In this document: positions 13,148 through 15,285 of the stretch, piece by piece
How positions within the stretch are numbered: position 1 is the first letter of the stretch
Layout of the letters: each line of letters begins with the position of its first letter
Source: an uncultured Pseudomonadota bacterium
GTDB lineage: Bacteria > Pseudomonadota > Alphaproteobacteria > Rs-D84
Length of the DNA: 37,122 bases
Reading direction: 5' to 3'
NCBI GenBank assembly: GCA_902787665.1
Contig: CADAHF010000012.1
Location: forward strand, 1 to 37,122
Position numbers and translations under genes: made by a program
The notes under the pieces: model-generated
What the model saw: the letters and a program-made list of their open reading frames with translations, nothing else
The model's database searches: none
What the model was told of the DNA's origin: nothing

Positions 13148-14275
13148 ATGAACAAAAATCCATATGAAGTTTTGGGGGTGGCGCGCGACGCGTCGGACGC
13201 TGATATCAAGCGGGCTTATCATAAATTGGTGCTTAAATACCACCCAGATAAAAACCCCGGGGACAAAGAAGCTGAAGAAAAGTTCAAGGATGTTAATAAC
13301 GCCTTTGATATTCTGAAAGATCCACAAAAGCGTGCGGCGTACGACCGTTTTGGTGATGCGGCGTTTGCCGGGGGTAACGGGGCGTCTGCGGGTGCCGGAT
13401 TTGGTGGCAACCCATTTGGAAATGGTGCGTTTCATTTCGATATGGGTGGTGGTGCCGGTATGGATGATATATTGCGTGAGGCTATGCGTGGTTTCGGATT
13501 TGATATGGGGGCGGGTCCGCGCGGGGCTGCACAAAATCGTGCCGGGCGTGATTTGCTGGACGAAGTTGTGATAGATTTGAAAGACGCTTATTTTGGCACA
13601 ACACACACAGTTAATTTTTCAAGCAAAGTTAGTTGTGAGAAATGTCACGGATATGGAACCGCTGATGGTAAACCGGCACCGGTATGCCCACGTTGTGGGG
13701 GATCTGGTTTCGTTCATACGCGTCAGGGATTCTTTGCAATGGAAACACCATGTCCAGAATGTAATGGTCTGGGGCATAAGATTGATAAAAAATGTTCCGT
13801 GTGTGATGGAACGGGTGCAGTTAATAAATCGCGCAGTATTGATGTAAAGATTCCCGCCGGTATCGAAGACGGCGCACGGTTAAGATTGGCGGGTCAGGGC
13901 GAAGCAGGTGCAAACGGCGCTCCGGCTGGTGATTTCTATTTGGATGTACGAATTCGTCCAGATAAACGATTCGTTCGCAATGGTGCAGATTTAATAACTC
14001 GTGTTAATGTTCCTTTTACGACACTTGCGCTGGGCGGTGAAATTGAAATAGAAACAATTGACGATAAGAAATTGTCAGTCAAGGTTCCAAGTGGAACCCA
14101 GGTTGGTGAAAAATTACGCGTTCGTGGACATGGTATGCCGACGGGCCGTCGCGATTCGTTTGGCGATTTGTATATTGATATTGCAATTACAATCCCAACA
14201 AAACTAACCGAAAAGCAAAAGAAAATCTTAGGCGAATTTGCCGACACCAAATCAGCAAAGAAAGGTTGGTTTTAA
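13148..14275 (+). CDS. dnaJ: Chaperone protein DnaJ
   Basis: 375 residues, full-length type I DnaJ, the co-chaperone that stimulates DnaK ATPase and delivers unfolded clients. J domain 1-70 with HPD at 32-34. A Gly/Phe-rich region (about 75-140) follows. The zinc centre has four repeats: [24 protein letters not shown] and CSVCDGTG. The two client-binding beta domains and the dimerisation tail ([12 protein letters not shown]) complete it. dnaK and grpE are not adjacent. Regulation by a heat-shock sigma factor is suggested by the upstream promoter. Confidence 0.97.
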
Positions 14276-14298: not shown

Positions 14299-14328
14299 AA
14301 TCCGTCATAAACGTGGCGGATTTTTTTA
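14299..14328 (+). terminator. Intrinsic terminator after dnaJ
   Basis: AATCCGTC / GGCGGATT (one G-U pair) around an 8-nt loop, then a T run. Confidence 0.85.
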
Positions 14329-14357
14329 TTGGAATAATCAGATGTATTGTTTATAAT
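14329..14357 (+). promoter_or_regulatory. Sigma-70 promoter of the structured RNA
   Basis: TTGGAA (14329-14334), 17 bp, consensus TATAAT (14352-14357). The start is expected near 14364. No ribosome site or ORF follows; structured sequence does. Confidence 0.75.
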
Positions 14358-14363
14358 AAAACT

Positions 14364-14536
14364 GTTATCCGGTTGGATAACGGGGTGTCGAAACCCTTAA
14401 TGTGCTGTGTCCGTGGGGACAAAAATAACCTCCGCCACTGTTGTGGTTGGAGGGGGCTTAATATAACGAATAAGCTCACTATTTTCAGTGCATTATAGTT
14501 TCGATCCTCCAACCACCTTGTTTTACAGGTGGTTTT
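14364..14536 (+). ncRNA. Structured non-coding RNA or attenuator, family unknown
   Basis: About 173 nt between a strong promoter and a hairpin AACCACCT / AGGTGGTT (14511-14518, 14527-14534) followed by four T. One nested fold has three helices in register: GGTTGG 14371-14376 with CCAACC 14509-14514; TCGAAAC 14388-14394 with GTTTCGA 14498-14504; TAATGTGCTG 14398-14407 with CAGTGCATTA 14486-14495 (two G-U pairs). These close a junction carrying three hairpins: 14408-14421, 14429-14453 and 14456-14475. Alternatively, 11 bases at 14443-14453 pair perfectly with 14506-14516, which would break the terminator stem. That mutual exclusivity is the layout of an attenuator or riboswitch. It has none of the SRP, tmRNA or RNase P motifs I know and no B12 box. 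A 6S-like RNA cannot be excluded. Confidence 0.55.
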
Positions 14537-14565
14537 ATGTTGTATTATAAATAAGGGGGGGCAAA

Positions 14566-15285
14566 ATGAAACAAATTATACTGGCTTGTTTTATAGCGGC
14601 ATTTTGTATAACGGATTCGTTGGCTGAAAATAGGTCATCGCTTTTATCAGATTATTTGAAAGTGATAAGTAACCATGAAAAAAAACATGGAGAAAAAGCA
14701 CAGTATGATGAAACAACATATGATAAAGAATTTAAAGAAGGCATGCTTGATGTTTGTTTCAATATAGAGCAATTTATAAAGAATAATAATTTGTCTGTTG
14801 TTGTTAGTCGAGAAAATACGGATTTTATTGCTGGTAGTAAAAAATATAATTGCGCACATGTTTGTGACGAGGTGGATTTTTATTATGATTTGATGATGAT
14901 AAATTTTGCATGTATTGTTTTGTTACCGACAGATAAAACACAAAGTAACACGGTTACGAACATGGAAAAAATAGCCGCAAATTATTGCGAACTGGTTCAT
15001 AAAAATGATATAACCTCACTGACGGTGAGGTCTGGATATACAAGGGTGGTTAAGTCAAGACAAACAAAATGTGAAATGTTAGATGCTGATAAATATCGGT
15101 GTGTAGAAAGTGCAATATATGCAAATCCGCAAGAAGAAAAAAGAGTATATGGCAAATGTTGTCTTGTTAATTGTGAAAAAAGTGATAAATGTATTGTGGA
15201 AAAAAGTACAAGACCATACGCGTTTTATGATGATGAAATTTTAACATTGGACGATTTTACAAAAGATTGTATTTTAAAGGAATAA
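14566..15285 (+). CDS. Secreted cysteine-containing protein, unknown function
   Basis: 239 residues. Signal peptide MKQIILACFIAAFCITDSLA, cleaved before ENRSS. The mature part is Lys/Asp/Tyr-rich with about 13 cysteines, several paired closely (C-A-H-V-C; C-C-L-V-N-C-E-K-S-D-K-C), suggesting disulfides in the periplasm or outside. No family recognised. It uses more AGA/AGG and AT-rich codons than its neighbours, a hint of recent transfer or weak expression. The start is supported by AAGGGGGGG before the ATG. It may have its own -10 (TATTAT, 14543-14548) or be reached by readthrough of the structured RNA upstream. Confidence 0.7.
   Translation: MKQIILACFIAAFCITDSLAENRSSLLSDYLKVISNHEKKHGEKAQYDETTYDKEFKEGMLDVCFNIEQFIKNNNLSVVVSRENTDFIAGSKKYNCAHVCDEVDFYYDLMMINFACIVLLPTDKTQSNTVTNMEKIAANYCELVHKNDITSLTVRSGYTRVVKSRQTKCEMLDADKYRCVESAIYANPQEEKRVYGKCCLVNCEKSDKCIVEKSTRPYAFYDDEILTLDDFTKDCILKE

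Follow-up and report, generated by a model that had tools for sequence, protein, structure and literature searches.

A putative transcription attenuator of the C4/sRNA-Xcc1 type, with private pairing codes, in leaders of secreted-protein genes of host-associated Alphaproteobacteria

The locus studied here raises the question of what kind of RNA is encoded between dnaJ (13148-14275) and a 239-aa ORF (14566-15285), where a leader and its promoter are located. Positions refer to the window, that is, the whole stretch of 37,122 nucleotides that was analysed, and all features of the element are on the forward strand. The initial annotation had described a ~173-nt segment ending in a hairpin, with helices closing three hairpins, behind a promoter TTGGAA-17-TATAAT. 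The predicted fold agrees with that description: the whole leader (14362-14534), with the promoter in front and a hairpin at its 3' end, forms a long interrupted helix surrounding three hairpins, with a folding energy of -76 kcal/mol compared with -46 +/- 4 in shuffles (z -7.3). The sigma-70-type promoter is also present, at 14329-14357. One such match per 1.4 kb is the chance level; the position of its -10 box is fixed family-wide, with such a box upstream of the element in 94 of 105 family copies vs 32% in shuffles, mostly 23-29 nt from the S1 hairpin described below. Immediately upstream of the leader promoter, 3' of dnaJ, there is a strong intrinsic terminator (14299-14322), which sets the transcription unit of dnaJ apart from that of the leader. 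The low-score Rfam matches to STnc240 and rimP rest largely on this dnaJ terminator and were discarded.

From its 5' end, the RNA presents the hairpin P0 (14364-14381, GUUAUCC/GGAUAAC), predicted by folding and variable in sequence among copies, and the S1 hairpin (14382-14397), in which GGGG (14382-14385) pairs with CCCU (14394-14397) and whose loop holds the segment a1 (14388-14393, UCGAAA). This segment is the 5' strand of helix P1, and covariation identifies a' (14499-14504, UUUCGA) as the 3' strand; in the same way, b1 (14399-14407, AAUGUGCUG) is the 5' strand of helix P2, whose 3' strand, b' (14486-14494, CAGUGCAUU), is supported by covariation and folding. The H3 hairpin (14408-14421, UGUCC-GUGG-GGACA), which covaries and is missing from short copies, is followed by strand 1 (14429-14438, CCUCCGCCAC), the partner of strand 2 in the terminator fold. 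Strand 2 (14445-14453, GGUUGGAGG) starts with GGU, as it does in most copies, and can pair either with strand 1 or with strand 3 (14506-14514, CCUCCAACC), after which ACC follows. Two hairpins identified by folding and covariation, the counterparts of P2 and P3 of C4 RNA, are located between strands 2 and 3: P6 (14454-14477), with a GAAUA...GAAUAA-type internal loop in the family, and X (14479-14498), in which CUAU (14479-14482) pairs with AUAG (14495-14498) and b' lies in the loop. In family f2 (L170, L176, L190, L193 and L196), the internal-loop strands GAAUA and AAUAA of P6 have exchanged places, as though the motif had been inserted in reverse. The end of strand 3 and strand 4 form an intrinsic-terminator-like hairpin (14511-14534), read from the sequence; in the window copy it is only moderate and its U run is short. 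The 11-bp alternative pairing of 14443-14453 with 14506-14516, proposed initially from this single copy, is exact; it extends strand 2 to position 14443 and overlaps the terminator stem.

Covariation in homologues, the check that had been called for, is very strong. In the terminator-side fold (P1, P2, H3, 1:2, P6, S1 and X), 95.9% of the cells are paired over 68 distinct copies, and 34 of 39 pairs present two-sided changes. The covariation score of this fold is 0.467, compared with 0.158 for shuffled alignments and at most about 0.08 for slid partners. Considering single helices, P1 is paired in 97.7% of cells (two-sided changes in 5/6 pairs), P2 in 96.3% (9/9) and X in 97%, with CUAU/AUAG changed to CAAU/AUUG in one subfamily, while S1 shows two-sided changes in 4/4 pairs over 68 sequences. 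The second fold, which is C4-like (S1, H3, 2:3, P6 and X), is paired in 96.6% of cells. S1 and X cross P1 and P2, so that they could coexist as pseudoknots. It should be noted that the 72 loci were retrieved by a pattern fixing strand 2 plus part of P6 and X, which in part imposes the conservation of these parts; the pattern did not include strand 3, P1 or most of P2. In alignment A6, the 2:3 pairing was itself a selection criterion. Less biased copies, from one genome, include a subfamily with CUCCUGA in strand 1, UCAGGAG in strand 2 and CUCCUGAC in strand 3. Over 141 copies, the three strands change jointly (A-U-A to U-A-U, A-U-A to G-C-G, and C-G-C to A-U-A), which directly supports the pairing of strand 2 with either partner. 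The 2:3 pairing is present in 96.5% of the cells of these copies vs 92.0% for 1:2, strand 1 being more loosely paired.

In 89 of 100 copies, compared with 3.4% of shuffles, the end of strand 3 opens a terminator hairpin with a U run behind it. About one copy in ten has no terminator, ABC-transporter leaders among them, and the terminators of family f2 look weak by eye. The 5' arm of the terminator also pairs elsewhere, and both of its pairings are conserved, the arrangement that characterizes an attenuator. At the level of sequence comparison, the parts of the element, its two pairings, the overlap with the terminator, the family, the homology and the position relative to the gene are established. 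On this basis, we consider it probable that the element is a C4/sRNA-Xcc1-type RNA turned into a cis-acting transcription attenuator, with its own promoter, which serves as the leader of the gene for the 239-aa secreted protein.

In the proposed mechanism, the default state would be a fold T with the pairings a1:a', b1:b' and strand 1:strand 2, in which strand 3 would be left free, the terminator would form and the gene would be off. In the alternative fold, called here fold C4, strand 2 would pair with strand 3 and close the P6 and X hairpins, AACC would leave the terminator stem and read-through would occur. The predicted energies of the window copy, -76 kcal/mol when the terminator forms and -56 when 2:3 is imposed, calculated for nested folds only and ignoring pseudoknots, suggest that off would be the default. 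Strand 2 starts with GGU, and all that holds fold T (a1, b1 and strand 1) is located 5' of it, so that a cut by RNase P at this point, or a trans RNA on a1/b1, would commit the molecule to fold C4. By analogy with C4 RNA, such a cut is a candidate trigger, and occupation of a1/b1 by a trans RNA is an alternative candidate. The direction of switching, the RNase P step, the trigger and even the regulation of the gene are what we infer from this architecture, and the a1b1:a'b' pairing might serve an antisense function instead of attenuation.

The element belongs to a large, uncatalogued RNA family with many copies per genome. No Rfam family was found in the window at family thresholds, and a search of 20 relative loci at gathering scores returned only tRNA and rRNA, with nothing for the element. 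By BLAST, all relatives found belonged to the same genus, in many cases with several in one genome. The covariance model R1, built from 28 copies, detected the element in 106 of the 115 genomes of the genus (79 of the 82 good ones), with up to 51 copies in a genome of 1.0 Mb, and in 177 of 201 genomes of the order, distributed over 18 of 23 genera and four families. The core model R2, built like R1 only from sequences of the order of Rs-D84, matched 21 of 289 genomes sampled from the class; several of these are small and carry multiple copies. A pattern search in named genomes gave metagenome-assembled genomes mostly from gut, rumen and other animal-associated sources, several of which are named Candidatus Enterousia. 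The window's own genome carries two copies according to R1; the second one (contig C15:8480-8601) precedes a 60-aa ORF and ends in a terminator-like hairpin. In another genome, four tandem copies with a spacing of about 210 nt were observed (L074; G049 contig C2:122-885), and tandem pairs are frequent elsewhere in that genome. Three contigs of viral collections (L155, L156 and L157) carry the element before a secreted protein or before the ABC transporter that also follows it in bacterial contigs, and they may be misassigned bacterial DNA.

Regarding the genes that follow the element, the start codon is mostly located 38-60 nt past strand 3, on the same strand. A signal-peptide-like start, called by a simple home-made rule, was found in 44 of 68 downstream proteins vs 73 of 241 other ORFs of the same loci (Fisher p 4e-7). 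The Pfam search assigned some downstream proteins to small HTH proteins, beta-barrel outer-membrane proteins, an MsbA-like ABC transporter and a UvrD helicase, and left most of them without a family. The promoter, the terminator and the near-fixed gene distance together indicate that most copies are promoter-leader-terminator-gene units, sometimes in tandem. In the window, the presumably regulated gene (14566-15285), inferred from ORF reading, encodes an orphan protein with a signal-peptide-like N-terminus; it had no match in Pfam and only one weak relative among 115 genomes, and the element is absent from the fetched locus of that relative. Short copies of about 105 nt with H3 reduced or absent (L083, L092, L094, L095 and L132) precede small HTH-like proteins and not secreted ones. 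Copies L021, L028, L142 and L151, located before an MsbA-like ABC transporter, have no U run, and the CCUCC within their strand 3 could pair with the Shine-Dalgarno sequence instead.

The initial annotation could not assign the element to a known family. This stood as far as Rfam thresholds are concerned, but the core could be placed as homologous to sRNA-Xcc1 (RF02221). The RF02221 model gave no match in the window; on the best relatives it scored 31.5-39.7 bits (E 5e-4 to 6e-6), below the gathering threshold of 53 bits. It aligned sub-threshold to two distant copies, in the corresponding place and orientation, and in a survey of the phylum it matched one genome of the Enterousia genus at E 6e-6. 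Reciprocally, R2 matched at the position given by Rfam in 9 of the 30 RF02221 loci (best E 3.6e-11), and R1 matched the sRNA-Xcc1 loci L202 (E 1.5e-4, with a1/b1 included) and L204. The RF02221 consensus structure, a 9-bp stem closing two hairpins, a GUUUUUGA-like segment, strand 3 and ACC, is found in the family as well. Judged from these alignments, the 3' half, or core, of the element is homologous to sRNA-Xcc1. The sRNA-Xcc1 loci present S1/a1 and b1 segments upstream, outside the Rfam model, in those that were read, and this suggests a more extended RNA of the a1b1 type, with sRNA-Xcc1 as its 3' part. A terminator-like hairpin upstream was also observed in loci L197-L226 and is likewise left out of the model. 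Some of the genes downstream of sRNA-Xcc1 loci are presumably antirepressor-like proteins, according to their N-termini. In integron cassettes, symE has been found downstream of sRNA-Xcc1 (PMC12444791).

The same organization is known from phages. In the phage P1 record, C4 is directly preceded by the c4-a1b1 family (RF03163), and the repeat can be read ahead of the following ATG; in Enterousia, the covariation of P1 and P2 shows upstream a1/b1 segments complementary to a'/b'. Nevertheless, a P1-type C4 in the sense of the covariance model was discarded: RF01695 gave no match at E <= 10 in the Enterousia genomes G000, G032, G049, G064 and G075, and R2 gave no match on C4 loci. We found no report linking C4 antisense RNA with Alphaproteobacteria in the open literature searched. 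The element is outside C4 by model and outside RF02221 by threshold, and it would work like a C4-type RNA with a new output.

Considering this relationship, a possible though doubtful explanation is that the element is a stand-alone C4/sRNA-Xcc1-like sRNA gene, from which a processed RNA of ~75-90 nt would act in trans via a' and b', the downstream gene being transcribed by read-through or being a mere neighbour. The copies have their own promoter and terminator, sRNA-Xcc1 itself is known as a cloned RNA of 88 nt, with its ends mapped and a band on Northern blots (PMC2996969), and 21 C4-like sRNAs, apparently processed, form Group 1 of Acinetobacter baumannii (PMC5320573). However, the copies are placed at a short distance from a same-strand start codon, before genes enriched for signal peptides, and a plain sRNA needs neither strand 1 nor the overlap of strand 3 with the terminator. 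Furthermore, the a2b2 target is lacking. Taken together, the sRNA-Xcc1 loci clearly repeat a1/b1 at the ribosome-binding site (7.09 vs 5.37 +/- 0.19 permuted); in Enterousia such a repeat is absent (5.37 vs 5.30 +/- 0.09 permuted). Conversely, a strand-3-overlapping terminator was found in 0 of 23 sRNA-Xcc1 loci.

A new metabolite- or ion-sensing riboswitch class governing a secretome regulon is very unlikely. The pseudoknotted, highly conserved core with an expression platform, the many copies per genome and the unpaired nucleotides that they have in common would fit such a class, but the helices that should build the aptamer are hypervariable. The b1 sequence takes 32 different forms over 36 copies of one genome, and b1 pairs in 98.9% with its own b' vs 46.7% with the b' of other copies; each copy carries, as read from its sequence, a private pairing code. 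An equal layout in phage P1 is an antisense RNA, and no Rfam riboswitch matched. The a1b1-C4 layout and the homology with RF02221 point to an RNA-RNA, antisense-type logic rather than to a metabolite aptamer. Of the riboswitch-type attenuator or regulated sRNA suggested at first, the structured leader, the exclusive folds and the terminator hold; a ligand-sensing riboswitch is not supported.

The least credible reading, a leader responding to an RNA-binding protein that recognises the conserved C4-like core, could draw on the conserved sequence of strand 2 and of the P6 internal loop and on the small HTH proteins downstream of some copies, but no candidate protein was found and HTH domains suggest DNA binding. 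Some copies (e.g. L003) present an SD-like GGAGG and a short TTG/GTG frame; a leader peptide was rejected because, by reading, neither start codon nor frame is kept in other copies. No specifier or antiterminator bulge of a T-box was seen by reading, and a mobile or integron-type repeat was set aside, since copies are scattered, keep to the coding strand and precede genes at a near-fixed distance, with compensatory changes that keep the pairs.

The preferred reading, a cis attenuator derived from a C4/sRNA-Xcc1-type RNA, ties together phage C4 RNA, the poorly understood sRNA-Xcc1 and an uncatalogued leader family of host-associated Alphaproteobacteria. If sRNA-Xcc1 is the 3' part of an a1b1-type RNA, the Rfam model may be incomplete, and the annotation of RF02221 may be too short and restricted to a trans-acting role. 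A route would also be outlined from a trans antisense system to a cis switch, in which a terminator takes the place of the second target. Should the switching prove real, genomes of about 1 Mb would have in it a major layer of regulation. A more speculative and rather improbable extension is that a phage-type immunity RNA was domesticated and expanded, with dozens of copies per genome, into the main secretome regulator of a reduced-genome order of gut bacteria. With a private a/b code per gene, a C4-like RNA released by RNase P would feed back on leaders of the same code, giving an individually addressed, possibly mutually exclusive, expression of surface proteins.

Compared with known systems, the element is close to sRNA-Xcc1, whose RF02221 consensus corresponds to the 2:3 fold with P6-like and X-like hairpins, an a' segment and strand 3; one difference is the second a1/b1 copy that many sRNA-Xcc1 loci (e.g. 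L200 and L208) carry at the downstream ribosome-binding site. With C4 of phages P1 and P7 it shares a1-b1 upstream, a three-helix core, b' in a hairpin loop and a' beside the closing stem. C4 of phage P1 blocks ant expression via the target mRNA and has a2-b2 at the ribosome-binding site, absent from the Enterousia element, which is proposed to use a cis terminator instead. It has been described that RNase P cuts C4 at the GG of the closing stem, with GGU as the motif, and that b' covers the ribosome-binding site and a' confers specificity (PMC5320573). The Group 1 sRNAs of A. baumannii likewise occur in many C4-like copies per bacterial genome, although they have been described as sRNAs rather than as secreted-protein leaders that overlap a terminator. 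Finally, as in attenuators of the trp-leader kind (1:2, 2:3, 3:4), strand 2 would choose between strands 1 and 3, and strand 3 between strand 2 and the terminator; unlike them, the element has no conserved leader peptide in the copies read, and an antisense-type folded domain is inserted between strands 2 and 3.
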